Shown here piece after piece: positions 666-47,439 of a stretch of DNA of 64,000 nt. This stretch comes from Diospyros lotus (Eukaryota > Streptophyta > Magnoliopsida > Ericales > Ebenaceae): NCBI RefSeq assembly GCF_014633365.1, contig NC_068338.1, positions 21,028,616-21,092,615 on the forward strand, given 5' to 3'. A program made the translations under genes and the position numbers. The stretch's first letter is position 1, and every line of letters begins with the position of its first letter. Under the pieces are notes generated by a model. The model saw only the letters and a list, made by a program, of their open reading frames with translations, ran no database searches and was not told where the DNA came from.

Positions 666-3600
666 GTATTGTCGATGAACTTTGATCCGTCATGCCAAAA
701 ATGTCTTTTTTTTTTTACGGAGGGGGGGGAGGGGTTGGACTGTCTGTATGATTTTCTTTTCCAAGTTGTTAATTTTTTTTTTTTTTAGATTAGCCATAAT
801 AAGCTCATCTGCATGTCTTTCAATTATGAGCATTCGGTTAGAACCAAACCAGAAACATAGCCTAAAAAATGGGGGCGTTCGACCCCCATAGACCAACTGT
901 CCATCTGAGTAGAGAAAGAGAAAATGAAAGTTAGATTAGGTGAGGTGGGTGGCTCTCTGAAATCAGAAAAAATAAAAAATCTTAAAAGAAAATAAATTAT
1001 ATAATTTTTAAAATTTAAGGGTGGGCAATTACAACCATTGGTGGCTTGGTGTTTAGGGAAAAATTAAAAACTAAATAAATTATATATATATATATATACA
1101 GTAACAATTTTTCAAATTAAAGAGTGGACAATTGTCTACCCTTGGCTGTACATAGCTCTGCCCCAATCCTAAACCAAAGCATCAAACTTGTCTTAAATGT
1201 GGTTCAGGCGACTAGACGACCATCTGGGAACCTATGAAATTTCTCATTGAGTAAATATCCACCATGCCGCCTAGTTGTTAAAAAAAAAAAAAAAGCAAAG
1301 GATCCTAACATGGTATTGGACAAGTAAAATAATTGACCCAGATAATGCTGGGATATGCATGTACAGATATATATGAAAAAATTGAAAAATTATCTGTTAG
1401 ATCAAAGGAATTAAAAGAAAGCTTGTATATATATGAGGAGAAATATATATATATATAAGAAAAAAAAGATAAATATATATATATATATATAATAATGGGT
1501 TATAGCGCAGGAATGTGATATGCATGCAGCCAATGCAACCATAGGTTCCATCACCTATTTTTTGAGATTTTAATTTTATTTAATTTTTCATATTACAATT
1601 TTATAAAAGGAATGGTAATAAAACTCCACTTTTTCTCTATAGTTCCCTCCTATCTGCAAATAAGCTAAATTAAATTTTAAAGGGTCAATTACACAAGAAA
1701 CACAATTTTTAAAAAATAATAAAAATAAAGTAAAAAGTCTTCAAATTAATTGGTCTTTCAATGAAAAATTAGAGCAAACAATTTGAGAGTACATTAAAGT
1801 GGAGAAGAGGGTGGTCTTCCACCTTTAGTGACTAAAGAGAGGGTGACATCAAAGTTGAAATAATAGAGAAGAAAGGAGATACTTAGTTAAGGAGAAGAGG
1901 GATTTGACTAAAAGAAAGGGGAGAAAAATTGAGAAGCTTGCAAATCTTCTTCAAGTAAAGCAAGATATAGGGCATGAGCAACTTCTTTTTACATTATTTA
2001 ACATAATAATTTGACTTCAGAAATATTATTTTAAATACTTTGTAAAAAAATATTAAAAATTGGTATACATATGTTTATTAGGTATTATTTGCAAAATAAG
2101 TACTATATGTGATTGTTTTGATGCATTTAAATTTTGTTAAAAATGCAATATATGCCAAAATATTTACGTAACGTTTGATAAATATATAACTCATCATAAA
2201 AAAAAATATTTATAAATAAATATGTATATATATATATGTAGATGTGGGAGCATATTTTTCAATGACCAGAAAAAAATTATCAAATAAAGGAATATGAATT
2301 TTGAATATGAAGCATGTATAGTTAAACATCTTATTTAGCTTTGGTTTCATATATATCATGAGTCTATGCTCTTGTAACTTTTTAAGCCACATGGGTTTCA
2401 TTTTAGTAGGGTTTTATATGAGAATGAATCTATATGTAATAATATGTAAATTTAGAGAAGCAAAATCAAAACCGACCTTGAGTTGTAAGAAATGTTGTTG
2501 AACTTGGGCCGAGGAATGGGCCCAAAAGTGTTTTAGGATTGTAGGCTTGAGTTAGGGAATTGGGCCTCATAAAGAGGTTTTTATTTATTTATTTATTTAG
2601 GTTAAAATAGTTAAATATTTTGAGGAATATAGGCACAAAATCTAGTGGCCTAACTGGTTCACAAAATAAGCCCAATTGGGTTGTAGAAAATTACCCTAGA
2701 TGTATTAATACAAGTACAACAAACACTCTTGATATTTAGTTAAAATATCTATTCATTATAAATTACATTAATCCCTTTTGAGTTATAAAATGTGTAATAT
2801 TTTGTCTTTACTATTATTTAATGATAATTCATTTTTTTTAAATACTAAAAATTAATGCCACCTTTTCTCTCTTCCCATATTTCATCCTTTCTCCTTCCAT
2901 TGCTCTTTTGAGCATTTTTTTTTTCCTTTCTCTATCTCCACTTTTGGTGTTTCTTCTATTATAAATTAATAAGACGTGAAATCATATTCTCCCTTAATTA
3001 ATGAGTTTTTGCATCTTGCCATTGATCAAAGAAGGAAAAGGCTTATTGCAAGTAGGGCTTTTGATGACCGTGCCTAGCCACAAAACTAGACTATTTTTTT
3101 TATCAATGCTATCAAGTAGAAAAAATCGTTTTTGATCAATGCTATCGAGTAGAAAAAATCGTACTAGTAATCGTTACAATCTACTAACATTTCTAAAGAG
3201 TAAGAACTCTATCATAATGTCCACCATTACTATCATGAATTGTTGAACCCACAGACCAATCGATTGTTTTTTATTTGATAACAACAAAGTTCAACGATAA
3301 TAATAATTTTTTCTTACATAAAGGTTCGTCATTCTTACTTTTTTTTCTCTCCATGATAATAGCTGGCCAATATTTTTTTTATCATTGAATAATACTCTCT
3401 ATAATTGGGCTAAATATGATGGGTGATTAGTGTTGTTAACTCAAAAAAAATAAAAAATAAAAGATACTTTGTGTAGCCAGGGGTTCAACTTTAAGGTTGT
3501 TAAAAATTTGTGAATAATTTGCATTATTTGAGAGAGGGGGCATGTGAAGTAATTATCAAATCATTAGGGGGTAGGCCACGTGCAATAAAGCAAATACAGC

Positions 3601-4300
3601 CAGCTATCCTATCATTTTGCACAGTCCACATAGCCACCGACATTCACCAATAATATTTTTATATACATATATTCATATATTTTTAAATCACAAATTATAT
3701 TATTTTCTATTTATTTATTACATATATATAAAAAATTATCCTTCTATCCTAACCTACTTGGAAAATATTTTTTATTGTTATACCTAACAAAGTGAGTTCA
3801 AGTCCAAATATAGGATTAAGAGAAAGAAGTCCAGAAAAGAGACATTCGGATAATATAATTTTCAAGAAACTATCTTAGAAATCTCTCTCGAGTACTTTTC
3901 GGGAAACCTTCCCAAAATTCTTTTTCGAATTCGAGAGGTACAATCTTTGAAGAATCCTTCGTAGTACGACATGATGAAAATACATCTAATAAATTTTGAG
4001 ATCCTTGCCTAAAAATTCATAACAAACAATCTCAAAAAATTTGGATATCCCTCCACTTGACAAGATGCCTTTTCATGTTTCGGACGGTCTTTTATCTCAT
4101 AAATCTCGAAATATTAAAAGTTGAAGATGAATATTGTCTCACATCTATAAATTTATTGTTATATTTCAACACCACCACCTATTAATTAAAAAAATTAATC
4201 GTCAAAATTTTAGTAACATAATTCTAATTTATTGAATATTGTACTTAACCATTATTCTTAATATATATTAATTTTGGATAAAAATTATAATATTTTTAAA
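666..4300. other. Non-coding AT-rich intergenic DNA
   Basis: I see no gene here. The stretch holds homopolymer T and A runs, TA microsatellites (about 1079-1098, 1441-1452 and 1472-1491), a TTTA run near 2580-2600, and many in-frame stops. Short open frames in it have no domain and no codon character. A G-box-like CACGTG lies near 3578. Confidence 0.6.
3098..3168. repeat. Two-copy 35-bp tandem duplication
   Basis: The stretch ATCAATGCTATCRAGTAGAA followed by AAAATCGT occurs twice back to back, near 3101-3131 and 3137-3166, with one base difference in the core. It is a small local duplication with no visible coding role. Confidence 0.7.
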
Positions 4301-22563: not shown

Positions 22564-25500
22564 TGTTAGATATAAGCCCTTAAGACCAGTTCTAGTGACA
22601 CAATAGGGCTTGATCTTGTAATTCTTTAAATCTTATTTAATGGCAAGTTTTATGTTTAATTTAAATTTCAATATGATTTGAATTGAATATACAAATATCC
22701 TTTAGTATAATAAGGAGTGGATACCATTCTTAATTGTTAAGAATAATCAAGACAGATAATCCACAATACGTTATACTATAAATATGTTCCTGGCCATAGA
22801 GTTCCTAACCTGGATAATTAGTAACACGCAAAGGCCGGCACATCGTCTTCCTCCTTGTTTGGTATAAGATACAAAAAGACAAGATTGGTAGGTCTCATAC
22901 CACTCTGTGTAAGATACAAAAGGAAGACGAGTTCACTGAACGGGACTGTTAATATTGAATCACATGGGTTTTATCTCACGCGTCAATGATTCAATATTAA
23001 CTACGGATTTGCATTAGTCCTTAGACCTGAGATGACATGGATATCTGTGTGTTTGTGGATTAGGATATCAACGATATTATATGGTTGTCCTAATCAGGGA
23101 TAGCCGTACATATATATGTGCCTAGTTCAGTGACACACGAGATATGTGTGCATCAGACATGGAATCTATCACACCGAGATATATGAGGAGGATATCTTAT
23201 GCGATCCTGTAACGCCCCGCTCCCACTTACGGGAGTTACTCGTGAACAATTACCCGAACTGTTCACCTGCCCGGTCTGAGATGAAGGGCGGACTATGTTT
23301 CAAGAAGAAACGCCCTAGGTGGGAACTAGGCTTCGTCTGGCCCTTCGCTTACCCAGGATCCATAAAACACCCTAGGGCCTCGCGAGTTTCTTATGAATGA
23401 AGAAATAACCCGCTACACCGCCCAAGGGCTTCAAGATGCTTCTTAACACCGGGCTAGACTAAGGGGAAAACTCATACTCAGAAAAATCCTCCAATTTTTC
23501 CAACACTTCATCGCTCGGGGACTCCTTCGGGGATTTTATAATTTCTTCTATAGCCCAAAATCTCCCAAAATTGGGCCCTATTATTTCCCCTTTTATTCCC
23601 CTAATTTTTGAAAATTTTCCCCCCCCTTTTTTTTTTTCGCGCGCGGGCCCCAAGGCCGGCTGGGCCCTCCCTGGGCCCGGCCGCGCGCGCCTGGGGCGGC
23701 CGCGGCCACGCGGGCTGGCCCAGCAGCGGCAGCATGGGCCGGCCGCGCACGCTGGCCGCGCGGCCGTGCGCCTGCCGCGCGCGCGCCCGCGCGCCTACCG
23801 CGCTCGCGCCCCCTGCTGCCTGCTGACCTGCTGCCCCCCAATTTTTTCCAGCAACTCCCTTATTTTGAAGTTCCAACTTTCCAACACCCCAAAAATGCCC
23901 AAATTCTCCAGAATTTCCTTTCCATATATACACATCAAAATGTACCCTTTGGGCTTAAAGAAATCCTTACACAAGGCATATACAAATTAAGCAAAAATTT
24001 CAACATTTAGAAAAAAAAATATTCAAATGTCTTCATGCTCAAGCCTCCTTCTCTTGCCAAACCTTTCCATAGCATGCTTCAATACCTACAAGAGGTCAAA
24101 TAAACCTCATGAGCTCCAAGAGCTCAATAAGGGTGCAATGACATAAAGTATGGAAATTAACAATATAGATGTCAATGCCATATGCAAGTGCCTAGGGTTT
24201 CAATGCCTCAACCCTCAAGGTTAAAGGCTTCAACATTCCCATCCCAACACACAATTTCATGGCCATGAGTCTCATACACACAAGTATATGCAAAGCAAGC
24301 ACAAAATGTTAAAATGCATACAAAAGTCATGCTAGCCACCATCCACTTGGGGCTTTCCCCTTACCTCAATACTCCATGGATCTTCAAGTTTCCAACAACT
24401 TCAAGCCTCCAAAATCACTTTCTTTAATTTCCTCAAACTCCTTACATGAAAAACAAGCCTAGGATTATAAAGAGATCCTTTAAAATGAGAAATACAAGAA
24501 AATTATGTAACCTTTACCTCTAGGCTTCTTGGATTTCTTCTTCTCCTTTTTCTTCTTCTTTCTCTCTTCTTCCTTCCTCTTTATTTCATTCAAATGGCTA
24601 AAGGGAAGACTTCCTCCATCTTCCTTTCTTTTCTTTCTCAAGACTCTTCAAATGGAAAAACTTGAGCTTGAAGGTCCACTTCCCTTTTTATACACTTTCT
24701 TTTCTCTTTTCTTTTTGATTTATTTTCCTAGCCTTGATATTCCCAATTGTAAGACTTGATCCTAGCCTTTCATTTCTCCTTTACTTTTGAGAATAAATCT
24801 TGACCATTGGAAGAAGCACAATCCATAGCCCTTAGTCTTCTTTAATCTCAACCCTTGATGCATTTTGGAAGACTAAATCCCCACCATCCAAATTAACACA
24901 ATCCATGTGTTTCTCAAGAATGAATCCTAGCCATGGACTTCTTTGGAGATCCAATCTCCACCATCCATCTCATTCTTCTATTGGATCCTTGCATCCCATT
25001 TGGCAATCCATGCCAACATAAGGCCTTAAATCTCTACCATTAGATAAATTCCAATTTCAAGACTAATTTTCCACCATTGGATCAAGTCTTCAAATCCCAT
25101 AAATATCCCATTTCTCATTTATTTAATTGGGACTAATTTCACCACATTAAATATGAAAGACAACTTGGAGAGACATAAATGCTTTTTTTTTCCCATTTAT
25201 TTTAATCTCCCATTTTCCCCCATTAATGCTTGACCATTTTCTTTTCATTTGCAATTTCTTTTTATTGCAACAAAATCATTACACTCACATGGGCTAAATG
25301 GCTCATCTTTTCCATTCTTTTTGGTTTATTTAAATCCTTTAATTTTGCTTGAATAAGACCATGCCAAGTGTCACTCTAAGACACAAACTTGGCTTCCAAG
25401 TCTTCCATCTCACCCATCCATTAATTATAAACATAATTTACCAATTAATTATTTCCACTCCCATAATTAATTTCCTCATTTTCTCATAATTAATTCCTTT

Positions 25501-26630
25501 ATGAAATTTCTCTCCAAAATTACCAAAACACCCTTTGTGAATTTTCAATCCCATTTATTTCCACATAATGCAAAATGGGAACTAATTCACTTCCATATTC
25601 AATTCCACCTTGGAATTATCTCCAATGTACCAAATTACCCTTTTATTGGACTTTGCTATCCAAATTACCAAAATGTCCCTCTCATAGGGCACCCTCAATC
25701 TCAAGGATCCGACACATTCTCAAGGGCATTTTTGGAATTTTCTCATTTTCTTTCTCATTCTTTTAACACCTGTAACACCGGGTGTTACAGATCCAGTGGT
25801 CACTTGACGATAAATCCTTGGCTAAGGTAATATGACGACGAAATTTGAATTCCGTAGAGGTTGTGTCATATTAGTCAAGTGTGATTACTGGATTTGGTCA
25901 TGCGACGAGATCGAGATATTTGACCTGTTGACCGTGATCTCATATCTCGTCGGGATATAGTATGATAGAGGGACTGTATTGCAAGGCACCGTAGTGTAAG
26001 GTTCACATTCCTACTTCACATTAATTGGGTAATTATGACATATTGCTAGATGTCACTAATGATTTATGAGAATTAATAATTGATTAATTATCGTTGCCAA
26101 TTTAATTGTGAACCCAGAAAGTCTCACCCAATAGAAATCGTTTTAAAAGAAAATAGGCAAATTTAGTAATTATGGAATTACTAAATTATAAGTGTAATTA
26201 TTTAAGAAATAAGAATAATTAAAAAGTAATATGATTATTTATTTAATTATTAATTTGGATTGGACTTTTTGCTAGCACCTAAAGCCCGACCCAATAACAC
26301 TTAGGGTTTTAGGGTTTTTTGTCTACAAATATAACATTAAACCCAGAATCCAAATTAATTAATCAGTTGAATCAGAATAGAAATTTTAGAGAAAACTTTC
26401 AAGTCCCTTTTTCTCTCAAGTCTATTGAAGTCTTGACAGTTTCGGGTGGACAGACTCGGCATCTCACGTGTGGGAGACATCAGGCGGGTTATCGGCTACG
26501 AAATCAAATTTCGTTTCGAGGTAACTTTTCGTTTTGTGTCTTCGATTTAACCGTAAGATTTGAAAAACGTGATACCAATAAAATCAGATTTTATTTTCCA
26601 CTGCGTATGATCAAATCATGTTTTCTAACA
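22564..26630 (+). mobile_element. Copia-type solo LTR, interrupted
   Basis: It starts TGTTAGATATAAGCCC and ends TTTTCTAACA (inverted TGTTAGA/TCTAACA) between CAAAC duplicates at 22559-22563 and 26631-26635. Without the gypsy solo LTR inside it, it is about 1480 bp. The promoter part (TACAAATATAAC near 26325) and the following leader favour plus orientation. No polyprotein is present. Confidence 0.75.
23208..25789 (-). mobile_element. Gypsy solo LTR nested in the copia solo LTR
   Basis: It starts TGTAACGCCCCGCTCC and ends CGGGTGTTACA, with GATCC duplicates at 23203-23207 and 25790-25794. Length is 2582 bp. It belongs to the same family as the LTRs of the complete element at 36406-46980 (shared start, shared TTTGTGAATT and CAAGGATCC segments near the end). 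A TATA box read on the minus strand (GTATAAAAAGGG near 24685) gives the orientation. The part at 23635-23835 is over 75% G+C by eye, in strong contrast to the surroundings, and produces several spurious open frames. Confidence 0.85.
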
Positions 26631-26652
26631 CAAACCCCCGCTGCGTATGATC

Positions 26653-29600
26653 AGATCACAAGAGAAAATAAGAGAGAACAAAAGTAATTCTCAAAGAGAG
26701 AATTCTAAGAAGACAACTAAGTTTTGGTTCAAGAATAATAATCACCCTTACAAATGCAATCAAGTGAGCTATTTATAGCCCACAAGATGCAATACAAACC
26801 ACATAATTTCAATTATTCAATTAAACATAATTATATCTAATGGACACTCACACACTTAAAGTTAAATGGATTTTAGATATAATACACACCTAAAGTTAAA
26901 TAGATTTTAGCTAAAATACACATCTAATAGTTAAATGGATTTTAACTAAAAAACACACCTAATAAAGCACTCCTAAAACAAATATTTAAAAAAAAAATTT
27001 ACAATTGGATTTTTGGTCTTCATTAGGATTAGAAAAAAATGCTTTGTCCTTCTCCAAATGATATCTTTCATGAGCTTGCTCAAGTTGGATCTTAAACATG
27101 TGTTGGGCCTTGGGCCTTCAATTTAATAGGCATGTGTTGGGTTTTAATTCTTCATGGGTTGAGTTTAAATTCTTCATTCTTCAATCCAATTTGAGTCTCC
27201 AAGCCCACCTTCTTCATGCCTACAAGCAAGCAATTGAGTGTTATTAAATTATATATTATGTATGTAACAGCCCACTTCTTTAGGGCGTGTTATGACTTAG
27301 GAAATTTGGTCTTTTTTTCTTTTTTTTTATCCCCAAAATTTCCTAAGACCTTATCTAGTGCTAGACGAGACATTTACACTAGAAAATAAATACAAGCGGA
27401 AGCTGAATCGAACCTGTTCATGGCAATACATACATGAATATCTGGACATAATATTTATTACAAAGTCATTACATAAGCTTCTGAAAATAAAACAATTGTA
27501 TATAATTCTTAAACTATTCATATTACATCATAACATGACACATTTCCTTATTTCTTGACGTCTCGCATCACTACACATCTCCAACCTTGGTATCATCACT
27601 GCAAGTCCCGACTGGAACGTTGAATGTTTCAGGGGCGAACTCAAGTTAGATGTTGAACCATCTAAGTAAGGGTACATAATGCTATGTCATAAGTGTATGC
27701 AATGTCTTTCATCGTAGGTGTCAACTGCACCCCTCATGCTACCTACCATTTTAGCGGCCACCTTTTTCGAAGCCGGGGTGTATGGGTACACCATTGGTAA
27801 GGCAGCAGTACTAGTTCGTACTCTCTACGACCTCATATGCGTGTGATCAACAATATCAACTTGTATTTATGCATTTCATAGTCATGTCATGGATGCATTC
27901 TACGTGATGGGTACATTTCATAGTATGTCAATATGACATAAACATTATTAAAGATATAATCGTACTAAGCTTGAAATAGTACACTTACAGCTAAGTTGCC
28001 TTGAAAGACGTGTCGGCCTCAAAAATCGTGCAGAGCGGCTATTTCTCAATCTTCTTGCCCTCAAGGGTTCCTAAAACATTAATTTATTTTTAGAATGTCA
28101 TTTCACTATTTTTCCATAATTTCTAAAATTTTTCTTTATTTCTAAGCCTTATCCTTCCAAAAATTGCATAAAAATTATCTAGACTTTTATAAAGTCTAAT
28201 TTCTTTCTACTAGAATTCCTTAAATAATATTTCTAAAATTCTGGAATTTTCTTGAAATTTTCCAACTTAAATTCCTATTTTTCCCTTATTTCCATAATAA
28301 CCAAATTCCCTAAATAAATAACTATTACATAATGATTATCTAAAATTTCATATTATTCAATTTCCCTTCACTAATATTTCTTAATTAATACTTCTAACAT
28401 TCTGAAATTTTCTCGGAATTTTCCAAATAAAAATCCTATTTTTTCTTTATTTCCATAATAGAAAAACTCACTTAAATAATTAATAAAATTAGCATTTTCC
28501 AGAAAATTTTTCACAAAATAAGACATAAACAATATTCCAGACTTAGATAAAATTTTTGCAAAATTTTATTTCTTTTATTTTTTTTATTTCTTTTCTTTTT
28601 TTTTTCTTTTCTTTCTTATTTTATTTTCTGTCGGGCGCGTGAAGGCCACGCGCCTTTTTCCTACTCGCGGGCTCGTGGCTACACGTGCCCGACTGGGGGC
28701 TTCTTCTCCGACGAGCATCCTCGCCGCCGGTCGGCAATCCAACCTCAAAACTCAAATTTTCTCCTCCTATCCTCTAGATCTTGATATTACAAACAAAATG
28801 GTACAAAAATTAATAAAAAAAGAGGTCAAACTTACCTTGAATCTATCGAAATACCCCTCAGCTTCGGCGAAGCTTCAAAACTCCGGCATGGTCGATTTCT
28901 CCTTCCTCACAGCTCCGTTGGCCACCAAAGTTACCAAAAATGTTGCCCACGACTCAAAGACCAAGACCTCGCTCTTAAATCTCTCAAACACTCTCCCAAT
29001 CGACCGATCTAAGCCTCGAAATTTTCGGATGAGAAGCTTCATTCGACCTCAGCTATTTATAGCCAAAACTCTGCCACGGGACGTCCCATCGAAGCACCCA
29101 CGTGCCCTAGAAGCAATACCCGGCGTCCTTGCAAGCATTAAAAACCCCCCCTTAATCTTAGATGGCCGATTGCTGGCGCGGCCATGCTCTGGCCGCGTGT
29201 CTGCTCTGCAAAATCCAGATTTTCTGGATTTTTTTTGATTTTATATATATATATATACATATACAGATATATATTATATATACATACAAATTTACATACA
29301 TACTTGTATATACACCAAGCTATATACATATGCATACATACATATTAAATTATGTATACAACAAGCAATATACATACATACATACATACAGCAACACAAA
29401 AATCCTATTTAAACACTAAATAAAATAATTTATACTTGTTACCTATTTATACATACTTATATTTACACTTATACATAATTTCTGGCATAAGCATACTTAA
29501 ATAGCATAATTTAATTAAACTAAATAAATATATCATATAAGCATAACTTAGTTAAATTAAATTTATTCGTAATGACTTAGGATATTACAATGTATATATT

Positions 29601-29843
29601 TATATGATATATTATATGGTATATTATATACTTATATATTATATAGATGCTCCATGCATACACTTCATTGAGTATATGTATTATGTTATAATATATATAT
29701 ATTATATTTACATGTTTATTATAATATATTATATATTATCTATATATGTATATATATTACACATAACTATTCAATTAAACCAATTTAAAATCAAAATGCG
29801 GGTTATAATTATAACAAAATTTTACAAAATTAACCACTAATCA
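26653..29843 (-). repeat. Downstream (3') LTR of the LOG-bearing element, truncated and interrupted
   Basis: It matches 34859-35695 from AGATCACAAG through ATTAACCACTAATCA, with a solo LTR inserted at 27263. The counterpart of 33886-34858 is absent on the outer side, so about 970 bp has been deleted. A minus-strand TATA box lies at about 26770 (complement of CTATTTATAG). Confidence 0.85.
27263..29589 (-). mobile_element. Gypsy-type solo LTR inserted in the 3' LTR
   Basis: It starts TGTAACAGCCC and ends GGATATTACA, with ATGTA duplicates at 27258-27262 and 29590-29594. The sister LTR at 35.45 kb shows the uninterrupted site. Length is 2327 bp. The minus-strand TATA (complement of CTATTTATAGCC near 29055), GCGTGAAGG-type segments and GAAGCTGAATCGAACCTG near 27400 relate it to the solo LTRs at 56.8 and 59.9 kb. 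A 199-codon plus-strand frame (28639-29238) lies within it and shows no domain. Confidence 0.9.
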
Positions 29844-29856
29844 TACCCCCCAACTT
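29844..29856 (-). other. Polypurine tract of the LOG-bearing element
   Basis: On the minus strand AAGTTGGGGGGTA directly precedes the LTR start TGATTAGTGG. It is the expected plus-strand DNA primer next to the 3' LTR. Confidence 0.65.
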
Positions 29857-31439
29857 AAACATTGCTAGTCCCTTAGCAATCAGACTATACACCTGCCAAG
29901 CTTTATGCGCAATAACTATATGAATGTAAAAATTTCAAATTCAAAACCGAAATGCATAAAATTGAATAAATAATTTAGCATTCTAAATCAGATTTTTGGT
30001 TAAAGGTCATACAATCTCAAGAATGGCAATTAGGATAACCAACACACAGACTTACTCCCTCGAAGTTTTGACTTCAAACCTTACTATAGATTTTCCCTCC
30101 AATAAAAATGATTCCTCAGGTGCACACACAATAGGGTGCACCGTTATAAGAGTAAATGCAAAACAAGTTCAAAACTCGATGTCATCCCAAATACAAGGAA
30201 TGTATTTTCAGGAAAGAATAGAGAAATTGACATAGCTTCATGACTGGAATAATGCCCTAAATGAATAGCTTCTGAATTTAAACATGATTCCCTACTCCAA
30301 ACTCGAATTTTGAGATTACATGATTTATAGCATCAAGAGGGACCAGACCGGGTTGTAATGGGGCTATGAGGTTAATACGGATTGTCAAATAAAAGGTAGA
30401 GTGTGCAAAAGGTGTGTCGAGAATTTTTTTTTTCAGCATTTATTTTGAAACAATTGTGCTGAATAGATAAGAGAATTTTTCTTTTTTTTTCTTCTTTTTT
30501 TTTTTATAAAAATAGCTAGATAGACTAATTCTCAAAAACACACCAAATTAGAAAACAAAATTGATATGGTTATGGGTTAAACGAGGGTAATGAAAAGAAT
30601 TGTACTACAAATGGCTCAAATAGGCTAGCAAGGGAGGTTAATGTAAAGAAAGAAAAAGGTTAATAAGCCCAAAATAAAAGAAATTGATCCCCCTATCATG
30701 CTTCTACAAAACGATGTTACTCAGTCATCTAATTCAGAATTTGAAACCAGTCAAATTCATCTGCTATCATACTAGACATTCAAAGCGAATTGATGTTTTG
30801 AAACTATTGAAAAGATGAGATAAACAATAAAGCATATTTAGAGTAAGTGTTATTTTACTCAGAATTAACGGTTATTAGGCTCAAACACTCACGTGGGTAA
30901 TAGTCTCCACTTCTATTGAGGGATCATACAATGTACTAATCAGCTAATTATTGTTATCTTTGACTTTATGACCAATAACCAATTTTTAAATTTTGAATAC
31001 CCGATGAATGCAAATTACTTGTTCTAATGCATATACGTTTTCAAATAAAAAATCAATGCATTCATGTTTCATATTACAAACTTAACCGACTATCAGTGCA
31101 TAAATCCAAATCTTTAGGAATAACGTTATTTAAAACACATAATTTTTTTTTTTAATAATAAGAGCAGATAAAGATAATCAATTCACACAAAACTATAAGC
31201 AAATAATAGTAAATTTGCAGTTAAACATGAATCAGATAATTCATAACTGACCTTACACCCCCAAACCTGAATTGCAGTAATAAAATAGGGTTGTTAGGAA
31301 TACTTGTAACTCCACAAGTCCACAGATTTACTGTGAACTGCTAAAACTCAAACAAACAAATGAGCATACCATATATATATTTATATATTTATATTTTCAC
31401 ACCAAAATAAAAATTTCATGCAAGTCATAAGATAAACAA

Positions 31440-31640
31440 AATGAGTATCAAGAGTACAAAAATTACTCCTTACTCAGCCATCTTATCATAGACTTGCCTA
31501 ACAACATTCCACAGTTTTTTTTAATTAATTAATTTTTTTTTTTTAGGAACACAACCAAGAAAAATTCTGCAAGTTGTACGATAAATAGATGCGTCTCAAG
31601 AATACAAAAAGTACTCCTTACTCAGTCATCTTAACAAATA
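31440..31640. repeat. Direct repeat of about 40 bp, 150 bp apart
   Basis: TACTCCTTACTCAGYCATCT, with its left neighbours TCAAGARTACAAAAA, occurs near 31447-31488 and 31596-31637. The pair straddles the A12/T12 run downstream of the LOG retrocopy. Confidence 0.65.
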
Positions 31641-31707
31641 GCACTCTTTATAGTGATAAATCTAAATTAATCAAACCCCTTTTGCGCTTGTTACTAATTA
31701 CCTTAGA

Positions 31708-32307
31708 TCAATCTATCCAAGGCTCATGAGGATCGTGCTGTGGAACATAAGCGTGTAATTTCTCTAGTAGCTCCTAAATGGTGGATGCTGAAATGAGAAT
31801 CTTTCTTGCTGAAAGAGAAATGAACTTTTGGTCCACAGCCTGATCAAGAAAAGAGAGCAACCCATCAAAAAAATGGTTAACATTTAAAAGTCCAATGGAT
31901 TTGGTATGCAGATTACTCTTGGCCTAGGAGATTATACAAAAGATTTCTTCAAGTGTTCCAAAACCTCCCGGTAAAGCAATGAAGGCGTCTGACTGATAAA
32001 TCTTACAAACCATGCACTCAGACATAGAAGTCGTTTCTATAAGTTGACCGCATATAATCCCAAAAATATGTGGTTCAACCAAAGGGATTGGCATTACACC
32101 TACCACACATGATTTTTCAAGATGTGCAGTTTGTAAAACACAACCATTCAATCCACGACTTCCCCCTCCATATACCAAATTAATTTTTCGCTCTCCTAAT
32201 TTTTGGCCAAGTTCGCTTGCTGCAAGTGCGTAACAAATATCGCTCCTAAGTTAAGAGCCATAAAGTACACATATGGTATTGATTCGACAAACTAACTAGC
32301 CTTCCAT
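31708..32307 (-). pseudogene. Intron-free LOG (cytokinin riboside 5'-monophosphate phosphoribohydrolase) retrocopy
   Basis: LOG enzymes release active cytokinin bases from nucleotides in the cytosol. From ATG (32307-32305) to TGA (31710-31708) the same frame runs 200 codons, close to the usual 210-220, interrupted by four stops: codon 4 (TAG), 19 (TAA), 128 (TAG, where the family has the Trp of TWAQ) and 178 (TAG). LOG landmarks in order are ICVLYGS, LAASELGQKLGERKI, LVYGGGSRGLNG, GVMPIPLVEP, DAFIALPGGFGTLEE (signature PGGxGTxxE intact), KSIGLLNVNHFFDGLL, ARKILISAST and HAYVPQHDPHEPW. There is no frameshift. Plant LOG genes usually have several introns, and none remains here, so the copy came from a spliced mRNA. 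An A12 run on the minus strand (31533-31544) lies about 165 bases downstream. No intact product is possible. Confidence 0.9.
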
Positions 32308-32487
32308 GTTTGTTCCTTTTGTATGCCCTGATTGGAGAATAACACAAAGAAGAGAAGACTGAACTCAAGAAGGGTGGCTTGCCTCATACAGATATGGAAT
32401 CTCTTATAGAGCAATGGGCATCACCATTCTACACTCGGCTCGAGGTATGCCATAATTACACCGTCAGGCTTGGCATCGTTTAGCATC

Positions 32488-32575
32488 TCATTTTTTAACA
32501 TTTGACAGTGTGCCTCTTTTTTTCAACGCTTGGCACCTCTTTTTTCAACATTTGGCAGTGTGCCTCTTTCTTTAT
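32488..32575. repeat. Short minisatellite of about 28 bp units
   Basis: Three imperfect units built on TTTCAACATTTGGCAGTGTG plus CCTCTTT lie just upstream (minus sense) of the LOG retrocopy. Confidence 0.6.
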
Positions 32576-33862
32576 AGGGCAGTGTGATTACACTACCCAA
32601 GAAAAATGGCTACCACCAACGTCAATTCTATCTCCCTCTATCTTTTTTTTTTTTGTATATATATATATATTTGTTTATTTATTAAAAAAACAAAATTTTA
32701 TTTTAGTTTTTTTTTTCTTTTCTTCCAGTTAAGGATCAAATGAGTGGTTGCCCACCTAATCGTATAATATCTCTCATTCATTACACCACTTTTAAAGTTA
32801 TTTTCAAAATTATGTAAATTGATTTTTCTCATGAATGCACATACATATTTTGAAAACATATCATCCGAAGGTGTTGGTTTTATTACATCAGAGTACAGCA
32901 CATTAATTCGCACAAACACCTCACACATGTTTGGTTTAATTTGATCTCCAATAATATAGACTAGCCTAAAAGATAGAAATTTAGGCTTAAATGTGGATAG
33001 ACCTATAACATCTTCACATTTTGGCTCTCGAATTTTATCCTCTTCTTCCTCCGAGGCTTTTCTTTTCTCACATCATTTTAGTCCAATTTTTCTTCTATGA
33101 TTGCTTGTACCATCCTAGGTTCATCAAGTCTCTCAATTGGCTCATCATTCCTAAGGATGGATGTAAATTTGACCAACTCTTGACCTATGAGTGCATTGAA
33201 TGATGATTTCCCCCTTCGAAATTTTGATTGGGTTGGTTTGAAAACTATCCAGGCTCACTCACGCTCGAGGTTTGTGTAAGCTCAATCAATTATTCTAAAA
33301 TGTCACATATGGCCCTAGTGGTTTGTACTTAAAATTCAGCCACTTATGCATTAAAACTCATTTGACCATGCATAAACTCCTAAAGGGTGTCCTCTAAAAA
33401 ATTTTCATCCTGAAGTTGATAAGTATCAGATCTAACCCCTTGTTTTAACTCTAATTGATGAGATACTAGAGAGAAAAGTTCATGAGATTGGAACAAAGAG
33501 TCATCGTTCCAGGGATAATTCCAATGGTCATAAGAACTGGGGTAATCAGAGTAAAGATCCGGGTCGTAGCCCGACAGATAAGAATTCTCCATCTGACTCT
33601 AGTTAAAAGAAAACCTCCCCTCACTGGAATCGGGATGGTCAAATGCATTAGAAGACACATAAATGCTAAAATACTGAGACATAAAGAATATGAAAATGAC
33701 AATTCAACGACAGATAATGATGCTAATGAATCAATTAATGTTTCAATAATCATACCTGACCATAGTCTCTTACACTGTTTAGTAACTAATAGTTATCTAA
33801 ATATATTTTTTTATTTAATTTTTTTAATTTATAATTTTTTTCTTTTTGTTTTTGCCTTAATC

Positions 33863-33880
33863 TCCCCGGCAACGGCTCCA
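33863..33880 (-). other. Primer-binding site of the LOG-bearing element
   Basis: On the minus strand TGGAGCCGTTGCCGGGGA differs at one base from TGGCGCCGTTGCCGGGGA, the site typical of Athila/Tat-lineage gypsy elements. It lies five bases from the LTR end (TGTAGCCA). Confidence 0.8.
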
Positions 33881-33885
33881 AAATT

Positions 33886-35695
33886 TGGCTACACTCTCAC
33901 CCTGCAATTAAAACACAAAACAAAACACAATAAAAATTTTATATTTTTTTATTTAGGTGAGAGGTTTATACTCGTCAGTGTACGAGTGCAGTTGTAGTCC
34001 AAATTTAAATTTATATTTTCTGGATGATTCCAGGTCGTCCATTGAGAGATTTATTTATGGCAAAAGAAAAAAAATGTCACACACATGCACACGCATTTGG
34101 ATGAATTGGTAACAAGATTTTTTATGGGTTTTTTTAGATAACAGATACTATGAAATAAAGCGAGGCATAAGTTGAAATAAACGCTAAATATGAGTATATG
34201 AAATTGGATAGTACTTGAGTTAAGACAATTTCAGCTCCAACCCGTTGATTCCTAAATTTTAGCAGAAAAAATTAGTAATATTAATTTAATTTCATATATG
34301 AGGGTTTGTTATTAAATGCAATTAGAGATGATGATAGTTCTAGTTTAAGCAATCCCCATACATGATATGCGGGACTCTAATTTAAACAACTACCATAAAT
34401 TCAATTGCAATTAATACACAAAACAACTAAATTAATCATCCGGCTTTGGGTATGATAGTGTTTCCAATTCTAGTAACTCCCATATATGGCATAAAAGCTC
34501 TAAGTTAGTCTTACGCTCCAATCCAAACCTAGTGATTTCTCAATAATTACTACACACCCATACTGAAATTTAAATTAATATCACTCATTTTAACCACAGC
34601 TTTCTTTGGGAATCATTGGCGTTGGACACTGTCCTTACCTTAACTCAAGATTGGATTTAGCTACTCTTCTCTATTTAAAAGTTAATTGACAGGAATTAAA
34701 ATAGTAGAAATTAACCGACTATTTAGGCGGTGAATAATAAAATGACAGGAATTAAAATTCCAGAAATTTAAAGACATAAATTAACCGGCCATTTAGGCGG
34801 TGGATAATAAAGTAAAAATAAATAACATAAGAATTTAAGAGAATAAAGAAAGAAAGTAAGATCACAAGAGAAAATAATAGAGAAAATAAGAAAGAACAAA
34901 AATAATTCTCAAAGAGAGAATTCTAAGAAAACAACTAAGTTTTGATTCAAGAATAATAATTACCCTTACAAATGCAATCAAGTGAGCTATTTATAATCCA
35001 CAAGATGTAATACAAACCACATAATTTCAATTATTCAACTAGACATAATTATATTTAATGGGTACTCACACACTTAAAGTTAAATAGATTTTAACTAAAA
35101 TACACACCTAATAGTTAAATGGATTTTAGCTAAAAAAACACACCTAATAAAGCACTCCTAAAATAAATATTTAAAAATAAAAAAAATTTCTACAATTGGG
35201 TTTTTTGTCTTCATTAGGATTAAAAAAAATGATTGGGTATTCTCCAAATGATGTCTTTCATGAACTTGTTCAAGTTGGGCCTTAAACATGTGTTGGGCCT
35301 TGGGCCTTCAATTTAATGGGCATGTGTTGGGTTTTAATTCTTCATGGGTTGGGTTTGAATTCTTCATTCTTCAATCTAACTTGAATCTCCAAGTCCACCT
35401 TCTTCATGCCTACAAACAAGCAATTGAGTGTTATTAAATTATATATTATGTATATATTTATATAATATATTATATGATATATTATATACTTATATATTAT
35501 ATAGATGCTCCATGTATGCACTCCATTGAGTATATGTATTATGTTATAATATATATATTATATTTACATGTTTATTATAATATATTATATATTATCTATA
35601 TATATATATTACACATAACTACTCAATTAAACCAATTTAAAATCAAAACGGGGGTTATAATTATAATAAAATTTTACAAAATTAACCACTAATCA
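33886..35695 (-). repeat. Upstream (5') LTR of the LOG-bearing element
   Basis: About 1.8 kb, running on the minus strand from TGATTAGTGG to GTGTAGCCA. The TATA box is the complement of CTATTTATAATCC near 34987. The outer half (34859-35695) is shared with the left LTR. The inner half (33886-34858) survives only here. Confidence 0.8.
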
Positions 35696-36405: not shown

Positions 36406-38997
36406 TGTGACACCCCGCTCCCACTTACGGGTGCCACTCTTGAACAATCACTTGAACTGCTCACATGCCCGGCCATTTGTGAAGGGCGGACTATGTTTCG
36501 ACACGAAACACCCTAGGTGGGAACTAGGATTCGTCCTTCCCTTCCCTCAATCCCATGATCAACTAGCAGACTTGAGTTTTAACTAAACCACACTTGGCAA
36601 ATAAATTTCCATTAAACTTGCCCAATCATCATGATTATTATTTTAATTCTTCTTCTTTCTAAGAATTCCACCGGGCTCCAAATATTTCAAAATTTCAAAC
36701 AACCAATTGGTTTTCCCAAAATTCAAGGAAAAATTCAAAATTTTCATTTTTCAAAAATTTGGCATTTATCTCCAAAAAGGCCCCAAAAATCCCTCTATTA
36801 TTTGAAAATTTCACCGGGGCCCATAATCAACCAAGAAATGCCCCAAAATTCAAAAATTTCTAACCTTTTTTAAAAAATTGGCTGGCGGGGCCTACTGGCA
36901 CGGCCGAGGCCCTATGGTGTGCTGGCCGTGCATGCCGCGTGTGGCCGTGCATCCCTGAGCACCTGTTGCCCACCGTGGCCCCCTTCGGGCCATCTGGTGG
37001 CCCCAGCTGCTGATGCTGCTGTGTTCTTCACTCTTTTACCCCTTTCTTTTTTCTCTCTTGGGCTTCCTAGCCCAAAATTTCCAGAATTTCAATACCCACT
37101 TTTAACAAGCCAAAAAGCTTCATTCCATAAAAAAAAAAAAAAAAAATACTCATTTTCTTCTTTCACAAAGCTTACACAACAAAGGAAAAATATTACTTCT
37201 TACACTCACTCATGGTGCTTATTACAACATAAATCAATATAACCAAAAATAGGCTTCCATAAGCCATACAATGGTCTTGGATCTTCATTCTCATGTTGTC
37301 CCATGCTATTCCATCTTTGCCTTGACTTTCCCCATGCCTTGACAACCTATATGTGAGGGTAAAAATCTCATGAGCTATTAAGCTCAGTAAGGGTGCTATG
37401 ACAATAAGCATGAACATGAATATAAAATGTGATGCCAATGCATGTAATGCAACAAAGTTAGGACTTCCACATCCTCACAACCACGTTGGATTTGAGGCTT
37501 TAACCTACCCTACCCCACACAACCTCATGGCCATAGGTCCTTAAATAGAAACAACATGCCAATGCACACATAAAAGTCATAAACCATACTTACAACCTTG
37601 CTAGCCACCATCCCATGGGGTTATCCTTTATTTCTTTTCTTTTAAGAGCTTCACCAACTTTGCTTTCAAGACTTTTTCATGCTTCCAATCCCTTAAAAAT
37701 AAAGCTTTTGATCATTAATTACTCTCTTGAAAACTAGAAAATAAAGAAGTAAGAAGACTCTTCTTTCTTTTCTTCTTCCCATTACATAACATAAATCAAT
37801 ACAAAAGAAAGCTTACCTTTTTTTATTCTTTTCTTCTTCCTCTCTTTCTTTCTTCATTTCTTTTCTCTTCTACAAGATGGGAAACTTCTTCAATTTCTCT
37901 CACCAAACTTTGCTAAAAGGATTAGGGTTTCCATATACTAGCTCATTTATACTAGCACCCAATCCTTCAAGAATAAATCCTAGCCACTGGATTTATTTGG
38001 TGAGAATAAATCCCAACCACAAAAATAGCTTAATCCACATGCCACTTAATCTTGTGAAATATCCACCATTGGATTATATCTCATCCATTAGATTTCATTC
38101 ATTTTCCAAGAGAAGATATCGACCATTGGAACAAGCACAATCCAAGTGCTTTGCTAGGATTTAATCCTAGCCTTCCATCTTCTTAACCCATGATCTCCAC
38201 CATCCAAAATTAATTTAAAAAGATTTCTTAAATGAGTAGGCAATCCATGCCAACTTGAAGGATTTTATCTCATCCCTTATATTACTTCCGATTTTCAAGA
38301 ATAATCCTCCACCCTTGGATCATCTTGAATTTCCATTTCCTTTCTCATTTAATTAAATCTCCATATTTTTCAAGGCATTAATGGTGACTAATTACCATTT
38401 TCTTTTGAATTTTCTTTAATTCGCCATAATCATGCCTCTCATTAAATGCTTACAAGACCAATTTCTCTTTTCTTTTGGAATTATTTAATTCCACCTTTCT
38501 CTTGGAGGAGAACTTGCCAAGTGTCATATTTATACTCAAGCTTTTGCCACGAAGCTTCCATCACAACCATTCATGTGGCATCACCATATTAATTCATCAA
38601 TTTATGAAAAATTAATTATTTTCTCTCATAATTGAATATTCTCTATTTTCTCTATTTTTCATAATTTAATTCCTTTATGGAATTTCACTCCAAATTACTA
38701 AAATGCCCTTTGTGAATTATTAATCCCATTTATCTCCACGTAAATACAAAAATGGAAAATTAATTCACTTCCATACTTAATTTCACCTCAGAATTATTTT
38801 CAATTTACCAAATTACCCTTTAAGAATTATTTTCAATTTACCAAATTACTCTTTATTGGACTTCATTATCCAAATTACCAAATACCTCTCTCATAGGACA
38901 CCATTATTCTCAAGGATCCATCCCTTTTCAAGGGCATTTTTGAAAGTTTCTCACTTCATTTCTCATTCTCTTAACATCAGCAACACAGGGTGTTACA
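36406..38997 (-). repeat. 3' LTR of the gypsy element
   Basis: It starts TGTGACACCCCGC and ends CAGGGTGTTACA (2592 bp). It is collinear with 44350-46980, including the A-run near 37130, ATTGGACTTCATTATCC-type segments and the minus-strand TATA (complement of TTTATACTAG near 37947). Confidence 0.9.
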
Positions 38998-39014
38998 TTG
39001 CACCCCCTTAAAAG
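38998..39014 (-). other. Polypurine tract of the gypsy element
   Basis: On the minus strand CTTTTAAGGGGGTGCAA sits directly before the LTR start TGTAACACCC. Confidence 0.7.
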
Positions 39015-44349: not shown

Positions 44350-46980
44350 TATAACGCCCCGCTCCCATTTACGGGTGCCACTCGTGAACAATTACCTAAA
44401 CTGCTCACATGCCCGACCATTTGTGAAGGGTGGATTATGTTTTAACATAAAACGCCCTAAGTGGGAACTAGGTTTCTTCATTCCCTTCTCTCAATCCCAG
44501 GATCAATTAGCAGACTTGAGCTTTAACTAAACCACACTTGGCAAATAAATTTACATTAAGTTTGCCCAATCATCATGATTATTATTTTAATTCTTTTTTT
44601 TTCCCAAGAATTCCACCAGGCTTCAAATATTTCAAAATTCCAAACAACCCATTGGTTTTCCCAAAATTCAAGGAAAAATTCAAATTTTTCATTTTCCAAA
44701 AATTCAGCATTTATCTCCAAAAAGGCCCAAAAAATTCCTTAATTTTTGAAAATTCCTCCGAGGCCCATAATCAACCAAGAAATGCCCCAAAATTCCAAAA
44801 TTTCCAATTTTTTAAAAAAATTGGCCAGTAGGGCCTGTTGGTGCGCCCGTGCCCTGCGGTGCGCTAGTCGCGACATGCGCGCGCCTGCCACGATCCCGTC
44901 CAAGCGCCCATCTGTGCGCCCCACGCGTCCTTGCGTGCCCGCACTCCTGCCACCCCCCGTGGCCCCCTATGGGCCATCTGGTGGCCTCGGCTTCTACTAT
45001 TGCTACCTTCTTCACTCTTTTACCCCCCCTTTTTTTTTTCTCTTAGGCTTCTTAGCCCAAAATTTTCAGAATTTCAATACCCACTTTTAACAAGCCAAAA
45101 AACTTCATTCCATAAAAAAAAAAAAAAATACTAATTTTCTTCTTCCATAAAGCTTACACAACAAAGGAAAAATATTACTTCTTACACCCACTCATGGTGC
45201 TTATTACAACATAAATCAATACAACCAAAAATAGGCTTCCATAAGCCATACAATGGTCCTGGATTTTCATTCTCATGCTATCCCATGTTATTCCATCTTT
45301 GCTTTGACTTTCCCCATGCCTTGACAACCTATATGTGAGGGTAAAAACATCATGAGCTATTAAGCTTAGTAACAGTGCAATGACAATAAGCATGAACATG
45401 AATATAAAATGTGATGCCAATGCATGCAATGCAACAAAGTTAGGGCTTCCACATCTTCACAACCACCTTGGTTTGAGGCTTCATGGGCATAGGTCCTTGA
45501 ACACAAACAACATGCCAATGCACACATAAAAATTCATGAACCATACTTACAACCTTGCTAGCCACCTTCCCATGAGGCTACCCCTTACCTCTTTTCTTTT
45601 AAGAGCTTCACCAACTTTGCTTTCAAGACTTTTTCATGCTTCCAATCCCTTAAAAATAAAGCTTTTGATCATTAATCACTCTCTTGAAGACTAAAAAATA
45701 AACTAGTAAGAAGACTCTTCTTTCTTTTCTTCTTCCCATCACATAGCATAAATGAATACAAAAGAAAGCTTACCTCTTTTAATTCTTTTCTTGATTCTTT
45801 TCTTCTTTCTCTCTTTCTTTCTTCCTTCTTTTCTCTCTACAAGATGGGAGACTTCTTCAATTTCTTTCACTAAACTTTGCCAAAAGGATTAGGGTTTCCA
45901 TATACTAGCTCATTTATACTAGCACCCAATCCTTCAAAAATAAATCCTAGCCATTGGATTTATTTGGTGACAATAAATGTCAACCACAAAAATAGTTTAA
46001 TCCATGCCACTTAATCTTGTGAAATATCCACCATTGGATTATATCTCACTCTACAAGGTTAAATTTCAACCATCCAAAGAAAGCACAATCCATGTGCTCT
46101 AACCTTCTTTAATCTCATCTATTAAATTTCATTAACTTTCCAAGAGAAGATCTCAACCATTATTTTGCTAGGATTTAATCCTAGCCTTCCATCTTCTTAG
46201 CCCATGATCTCCACCATCCAAAATCAATTTAAAAAGATTTCTTAAATGAGTTGGCAATCCATGCCAACTTGAAGGATTTTATCTCATCCCTTAGATCACT
46301 TCCCATTTTCAAGAATAATCCTCCACCCATGAATCATCTTGAATTTCCATTTCCTTTCTCATTTAATTAAATCCCCATATTTTTCAATGCATTAATGGTG
46401 ACTAATTACCATTTTCTTTTGAATTTTCTTTAATTCACCATAATCATACCTCTCATTAAATGCTTACAAGAACAATTTCTCTTTTCTTTTGGAATTATTT
46501 AATTCCACCTTTCTCTGGGAGGAGAACTTGCCAACTGTCACATTTAGACACAAGCCTTTCCCTCGAAACTTCCATCACAACCATCTATGTGACATCACCA
46601 CATTAATTCACCAATTTAGGAAAAATCAATTATTTTCTCTCATAATTGAATATTCTCTATTTTTCCTATTTTTCATAATTTAATTCCTTTATGGAATTTC
46701 ACTCTAAATTACTAAAATGCCCTTTGTGAATTATTAATCTCATTTATCTCCACATAAATACAAAAATGAAAAATTAATTCACTTTCATACTTAATTCCAC
46801 CTAGGAATTATTTCTAATTTACCAAATTACCCTTTATTGGACTTCGCTATCCAAATTACCAAAATGCCCATCTCATAGGGCACCATTATTCTCAAGGATC
46901 CATCCCTTTCTCAAAAGCATTTTTAGAAGTTTCTTACTTCATTTCTCATTCTTTTAACACCAGCAACACGGGGTGTTACA
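44350..46980 (-). repeat. 5' LTR of the gypsy element
   Basis: 2631 bp, ending CGGGGTGTTACA. On the plus strand it starts TATAACGCCCCGC, with TG changed to TA compared with the solo copy at 23208. It is collinear with the other LTR, but has small indels, such as an additional stretch near 46050-46110. Confidence 0.9.
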
Positions 46981-47439
46981 TTCCTCCTCTTCATCAATTA
47001 GGGTTTTTTGGCTTCCACCTTGCGCCGTCGATTCTTCTCTATTGCTACCTTTAATCGTTGCTAGTCATCTCCCTTTTTCATCCTTCATCACCAGTGGTTC
47101 TAATTGCCAGCTTGCCATCTTTAATGGCTTTAATCATTGACCACCGGATTGGATACTAAAGTTTAAGTAGGCCCTTCTGCAAATGAAAAGCTAAAACTCA
47201 ACTCATCCAGCTCAAATAGCTTCCTTCGCCAAGGAGCTTCGATGGTTTGTAATTAATTAATTAATGTCCACAATTATCAGCAACTAGCACACACACATAT
47301 ATAGGTAGATAGATATAAAAAGCCCCAACTACTGATATGCTTCAATTCTTCCATTCAACAAGCAATCTTATTCTTCATATGAAATCTTGAGGATCAAGGG
47401 AAATGAAGGAAGGAAGCCATCCCATTCTAGCACACAAAG

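Follow-up and report, generated by a model that had tools for sequence, protein, structure and literature searches.

The window (the whole stretch of Diospyros lotus DNA that was analysed, 64,000 nucleotides) contains what is very probably a degenerate, non-autonomous copy from a Ty3/gypsy LTR retrotransposon family that is numerous and in part young, and we put at roughly 0.8 the probability that this autonomous family carries LOG as a fixed accessory gene, located between its pol and its 3' LTR. Active cytokinin, which promotes division and meristem activity, is the product released by LOG enzymes. The anatomy of the family is held with high confidence: copies with LTRs and target site duplications (TSDs) are dispersed in the genome, LOG has a fixed position in them, selection has acted at the protein level, and one copy is of spliced type.

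Structure of the element in the window

The ends of the element, and of an insertion in its 3' LTR, were read by eye against the relatives L012 and L013/L029 (Table 1). The internal region, 29844-33885 in the initial annotation, fits the primer binding site (PBS), the polypurine tract (PPT), and both LTR borders to the base, and element and LOG share their reading direction. The PBS has one mismatch to that of L012 and L029, which we take to be the complement of the 3' end of tRNA-Asp. The two LTRs are 86-94% identical over their aligned parts, so the window copy is old. For the final portion of the 3' LTR, no match was obtained past 26661 in searches of 26000-29900 and of the whole window with the dust filter on. 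The element had been described as lacking both gag and pol: for pol this agrees with the finding that the pol ORF of L013 has no match in the window; gag has left three fragments. Scans of the window for tRNAs and Rfam families gave nothing informative.

Table 1 Features of the element, by position in the window. A slash marks a junction; empty cells, no entry.
Feature	Positions	Strand	Remarks
5' LTR	33886..35695	-	TGATTAGTGG ... CCA; about 1.8 kb; ends by comparison with L012 and L013/L029
Primer binding site TGGAGCCGTTGCCGGGGA	33863..33880	-	TGGCGCCGTTGCCGGGGA in L012 and L029
Gag-derived ORF, three fragments	32725..33589	-	tblastn; ORF open in short-form L012
TATA-like box CTATAAGAG	32401..32409	-	Core CTATAAGA
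Probable exon-exon junction CAATCAG/GGCATAC	32327..32328	-	Putative intron of about 0.77 kb with Viral_NABP ORF absent
LOG pseudogene	31648..32307	-	Colinear frame of 219 codons plus stop, intron-free, five premature stops
Polypurine tract, adjoining 3' LTR	29844..29856	-	
3' LTR, first part	29590..29843	-	94% identity with 35448-35695
Later insertion into 3' LTR	27267..29589	.	TGTAATATCC ... GGCTGTTACA; TACAT flanks
3' LTR, second part	26661..27266	-	86-87% identity with 34879-35456

The LOG of the window, read with stops masked as X, matches Pfam PF03641 (E 3.7e-26), and its nearest solved relative is Arabidopsis At2g37210 (2a33; E 1.2e-42). Its frame aligns without gaps to the open copies described below, with five in-frame stops ahead of the terminal stop, and the longest ORF at this place has 84 aa. 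The frame is colinear and, as first reported, full-length, intron-free, and on the minus strand; an open LOG in the window is ruled out by the five stops.

Other repeats lie in and beside the element. The insertion into the 3' LTR is 2.3 kb long, is bordered by a duplicated TACAT, has the inverted ends TGTAA...TTACA, and contains a tandem duplication of 161 bp at 28163-28484 (76% identity). A neighbouring repeat family of about 2.6 kb is present as direct repeats at 36410-38999 and 44354-46982 (86-87% identity); a third segment, 25189-25789, is related to them.

LOG in the genome and in the element family

The Diospyros lotus genome (630 Mb, 43 contigs) was searched in several ways. Allowing up to two mismatches, a LOG pattern of 26 nt was found at 413 + 386 = 799 places (reversed-pattern control, 0 + 0), and a LOG DNA query matched in 40/40 scored candidates (the best 40 of 890). 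Two samples were read: L009-L028, 20 of the 39 other query-matched places, chosen by score and taken with flanks; and L031-L070, 40 exact 26-mer matches in list order, comprising the remaining places on contig 1 and two on contig 2, three of which were re-taken with flanks as L071-L073. LOG was open (a single ORF of at least 205 aa) in 15/20 top-scoring and 26/40 list-order copies, the latter with lengths of 218-222 aa; these shares are upper-side estimates because an exact 26-mer or a top score selects young copies. The relatives with an open LOG frame that the initial annotation had envisaged therefore exist in the same genome. The 41 open copies encode 27 distinct proteins, and PGGFGTLEE is present in 40 of the 41 copies. 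Among the best 150 of 864 candidates of a six-frame LOG search, 145 were element-type and five were host LOG loci; 126 of the 145 element-type matches had an open frame of at least 200 aa without a stop (hand count). Most open copies end in a basic tail, KRQRGP, KRKRGP, or KRPRGP (e.g. L013:5310-5357), possibly a nuclear signal.

An integrase pattern of the family, allowing two mismatches, occurs at 158 + 137 = 295 places (control, 0 + 0), and relatives without LOG were sought within this mismatch limit. On contigs 1-3, 36/39 exact integrase matches are followed downstream, on their own strand, by the exact LOG 26-mer at a distance of 2,428-2,616 bases, and two further exact integrase copies have a LOG protein match at the equivalent place (total 38/39); C1:42741371 is the sole one of the 39 with no LOG assigned. 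Read the other way, the exact integrase pattern lies upstream of 36/93 exact LOG places on these contigs, and the remaining 57/93 belong to the short form, have been truncated, or have diverged further. Since LOG has the same place in 38/39 family copies, it is a fixed accessory gene and not a one-off capture. A later LINE-type insertion of LOG, which copies of the element lacking LOG would have suggested, is ruled out by the position shared across the family: the exact integrase copies examined do carry the gene. The capture itself would appear to predate the split of the subfamilies.

Autonomous copies have the order 5' LTR, PBS, gag-protease-RT-RNase H-integrase, TATA-like box, short leader, NABP span, LOG, PPT, 3' LTR, with a LOG ORF of 219 aa and an NABP ORF of 181 aa. 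In the long-form copy L029/L013, long open frames cover gag (PF03732), protease (PF13650), RT, RNase H, and integrase in the gypsy order; its LTRs are 99.56% identical over 2,045 bases and are flanked by the TSD GTGAC. The short-form copy L012 has LTRs with 99.84% identity and the TSD ATGGG (L030/L012). A 5-bp TSD was thus present in both relatives read for it, and in the window the end of the 3' LTR is missing; LTRs with TG...CA, a PBS, and a PPT are present in the window, L012, and L013/L029 alike. One RNase H stretch was recognized in L013 by Pfam; an additional RNase H, absent in Athila, separates Athila from Tat according to the passages of PMC6317226 drawn on here.

Upstream of LOG, 12/20 copies are unlike the short form. 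Three long-form (L013, L072, L073) and two short-form subfamilies (L012, L071) were read. Short forms retain remains of gag together with the NABP ORF and LOG, and in both forms NABP and LOG stand ahead of the PPT. The gag-derived ORF of L012 (oriented 2051-3322) has 412 aa from Met; by eye, the capsid part is absent and the zinc-knuckle part is kept. Its open length is 350 aa in L016 and 313 aa in L022, and shorter in L009, L010, L025, and L071. It may serve as a helper or interfering gag; PHROGs, queried with the NABP and gag-like ORFs, returned nothing informative. An origin of the short form from the long form via splicing in gag was rejected, as no GT-AG was seen at the junction by eye. 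LOG is identical in sequence between L012 and L013, which are 100% identical over L013:4401-5400, 84-96.5% at 3201-4200, and an 89-100% patchwork downstream to 9200; a shared identical LOG within a more diverged patchwork points to recombination between autonomous and short forms.

The five host LOG loci are 79-94% identical to a 74-residue piece of Arabidopsis LOG3, and their matches end at residue 37-41; element LOG is 44-48% identical to the same piece, with a match continuous past that point. Host LOG is therefore split there and element LOG is not, the interruption being one intron position deduced from the match ends. At this one place compared, the earlier premise that the element carries an intron-free LOG where host LOG is split was upheld in all five loci, and an intron-free host parent was not found. 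No close host parent of element LOG was seen among the matches listed, which were filled with element copies; C4:26943379 (L074), considered as a parent, proved to be another element copy. The large distance between element and host LOG may reflect an old capture, another LOG branch, or fast change. Element LOG aligns over almost its full length with the plant LOGs 2a33 and 1ydh, and also with other solved entries named cytokinin riboside 5'-monophosphate phosphoribohydrolase. It keeps PGGxGTLEE and the Arg of MSER/MHQR; PGGxGTxxE is the motif of the Lysine_decarbox/LOG domain. The LOG of L013 matches PF03641 with E 6.6e-33, and a second SLOG profile, PF18306, matches as well.

The NABP ORF, the putative intron, and selection

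The ORF ahead of LOG resembles viral nucleic-acid-binding proteins. PF05515 (Viral_NABP) scored 28.9-35.4 bits against a curated cut-off of 23 in 4/4 copies (L012, L013, L071, L073), over 61-82 residues of the 181-aa ORF, and Carla_C4 exceeded its cut-off in two of these four (L012, L071). Cysteines are spaced C-X2-C-X4-C-X3-C in 5/6 open copies, the third Cys being Tyr in L071; the C-X2-C-X9-C-X4-C of potato virus H (PMC3689765) is not matched. The product is therefore called NABP-like and not a carlavirus protein. In the portions of PMC12172455 and PMC3689765 used here, carlavirus proteins of this type suppress RNA silencing, and the chrysanthemum virus B member is a transcription factor as well and causes hyperplasia; one local assay in PMC3689765 gave no silencing suppression by the latter protein. 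Searches with NABP gave nothing informative among solved structures, and six pattern stretches with no relative among viral_contigs.

The NABP ORF lies entirely between a donor CAG/GTACTC and an acceptor CAG/GG (slash, putative splice site). Where the donor was located, in 17 copies, donor and acceptor are 762-781 nt apart (768 nt in L012); GT is present in 16/17 of these donors and AG in 20/20 acceptors, the donor in 3/20 copies (L011, L019, L025) being unmatched by the search string. In L022, a natural splice-site variant, the donor GT is AT, with NABP and LOG still open. The acceptor is pyrimidine-rich, and its AG is kept in L071, where the surrounding block of 40 nt shares no more than 57% identity with L012. 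In the window copy the donor and acceptor borders are joined exactly and the NABP span is gone; the 33-nt junction, searched with up to three mismatches, has one place in the genome, namely the window. This copy is probably reverse-transcribed spliced RNA, and such a single spliced-type copy is DNA-level evidence for an intron.

A box upstream, CTATAAGAG, is a candidate TATA box by sequence resemblance. Its core is identical in 9/9 aligned copies, and in 6/6 unspliced copies measured its distance to the donor is 82 nt. From about 32 nt past the box, the first AUG in the unspliced sequence is that of NABP (6/6 copies); after splicing, the L012 sequence would have no AUG ahead of that of LOG. 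We infer a two-product switch from this order of AUGs.

Selection was assessed on a LOG tree of 50 distinct copies (61 before identical ones were merged). Changes at codon positions 1/2/3 number 39/24/81 on internal and 122/96/120 on terminal branches (Fisher p 3.2e-5); the third-position share of the internal branches, 81/144, exceeds one third (p 2.3e-8), and that of the terminal branches does not depart from it (p 0.42). An earlier count on 13 distinct copies agreed, with 17/13/32 for shared variants and 36/24/22 for singletons (p 0.003). A third-position bias on internal and not on terminal branches indicates that LOG is selected while elements replicate. Among the open copies L012, L013, L071, L072, and L073 (LOG identical in the first two), LOG has a dN/dS of 0.22-0.35 and NABP one of 0.15-0.20, the exception being NABP in L072-L073 (0.41, five changes); pairs with L010 or L022 have 0.36-0.73 for LOG and 0.22-0.33 for NABP. 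LOG pairs of older, mostly broken copies reach 1.40, which fits decay of LOG after insertion, and pairwise values alone do not prove selection. NABP is open in 6/7 copies (broken in L010), and synonymous divergence is about 0.2 between subfamilies that keep LOG open. Both proteins have been conserved between subfamilies, and LOG appears neutral on terminal branches.

Proposed role, alternatives, and known systems

Transcription, splicing, translation, enzyme activity, and a benefit to the element are inferred from the DNA. In genome-length RNA, LOG would lie behind gag-pol, so its translation would need the putative internal promoter or further splicing. NABP and LOG may accordingly be read as two products from an internal start, unspliced RNA presenting the AUG of NABP and spliced RNA that of LOG. 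LOG would turn cytokinin nucleotide into active cytokinin in the expressing cell; the NABP-like protein would blunt silencing or act on transcription, as members of the carlavirus family do; and the two together would promote dividing cells of meristem type, where the element would copy itself and reach the gametes. That LOG makes active cytokinin and that its NABP-like partner dampens silencing or affects transcription has, in our estimate, an even chance of being right. The wider proposal, in which an intron-chosen cassette of a virus-type nucleic-acid-binding protein and a hormone enzyme would make dividing, poorly silenced cells, a gall-maker's strategy adopted by a genomic element, is tentative and rather doubtful.

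The most serious competitor, unlikely as a whole, holds that LOG is kept as a non-cytokinin nucleotide 5'-monophosphate hydrolase that alters the nucleotide pools available to reverse transcription or removes a nucleotide signal used in plant immunity. The match to PF18306, the mere 44-48% identity to the Arabidopsis LOG piece, and the basic tail of most open copies speak for such a job; the almost full-length alignment with plant LOGs and the retained PGGxGTLEE and Arg speak against it. Less probable again is a microhomology deletion as the source of the 0.77 kb missing from the window copy. CAGG is present at both borders of the missing span, and a single such copy was found genome-wide. GT/AG borders with a pyrimidine-rich acceptor, the constant 82-nt spacing, and the AG kept within the diverged block of L071 speak against it, and of 55,587 deletions of 500-900 nt modelled in the L012 stretch (the one copy modelled) only 300 (0.54%) were readable as GT-AG; among the 278 modelled deletions with at least 4 nt of microhomology, one was. 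Reverse-transcribed spliced RNA is thus the preferred origin of the window copy.

Three accounts of why LOG is present carry little weight. Acting as RNA, LOG would supply small RNAs directed at the LOG genes of the host, for which the hundreds of copies would be an asset; selection at the amino-acid level and the low protein identity (44-48% against 79-94% for host loci on the same query) make this very improbable. A neutral, hitch-hiking passenger would suit the neutral look of the terminal branches and the older-copy pairs with dN/dS near or above 1, yet the internal third-position excess largely refutes it, as do several subfamilies with LOG still open at a synonymous divergence of about 0.2, and it is given slightly less credit still. 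A one-off, recent capture of a LOG mRNA by the window element itself, as initially suggested from the intron-free state of LOG within the element, is practically discarded: LOG stands at the matching place in 38/39 family members on contigs 1-3. A fixed accessory gene of the family remains the reading that we adopt.

If LOG is active, mobile hormone-activating genes under selection number in the hundreds in this genome, against five host LOG loci found, and a mobile element joins an ORF of viral type with a hormone enzyme of its host; this would bear on gene annotation (LOG family counts) and allow a direct test of the reason for which accessory genes are retained in plant retrotransposons. 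A LOG-type domain in gypsy elements is already known, and the pairing of NABP with LOG in one cassette, the selection on it, and the scale at which it occurs are apparently new, as we did not find them in print: our searches of the open-licence PMC literature yielded no report of the three, no paper combining "Viral NABP" with "retrotransposon", and, for LOG inside gypsy elements, PMC9289625 as the sole instance.

According to section 12 of PMC9289625, a YgdH (LOG-type) domain occurs in gypsy consensus sequences of two Citrus species (citing Steinbauerova et al. 2011) and in a P. trichocarpa gypsy consensus with the n5 filter off. These elements, like those described here, have a LOG-family domain inside Ty3/gypsy LTR elements; the two sentences given to it in that section mention no open frames, selection, virus-type ORF, intron, or copy number. 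Orchid gypsy elements that encode an AlkB m6A demethylase, treated in the same source, also join Ty3/gypsy with an extra enzyme ORF; the enzyme and role differ, and in vitro activity is reported there, in contrast to the sequence evidence given here. As far as the relevant parts of PMC6317226, PMC7264820, and PMC11963269 go, the OTA (Ogre/Tat/Athila) non-chromoviruses share the gypsy order of domains, extra ORFs on the sense strand ahead of the 3' LTR, a 5-bp TSD, and a tRNA PBS of non-chromovirus type; their extra ORFs are env-like, Athila ORF-1, plant mobile domain, and Transposase_28, whereas here they are Viral_NABP and LOG. The carlavirus cysteine-rich proteins, in the portions of PMC12172455 and PMC3689765 used, have PF05515 and a basic stretch immediately ahead of the cysteine cluster, as the element ORF does; the latter differs in its 181 aa, its cysteine spacing, and its place inside a putative retrotransposon intron. 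Introns of the Ogre/EVADE LTR elements give different RNAs (PMC12786077, in the part consulted), as proposed here; in the present family the intron would hold an ORF, the downstream ORF is LOG, and the intron is supported by a genomic copy of spliced type and not by RNA.
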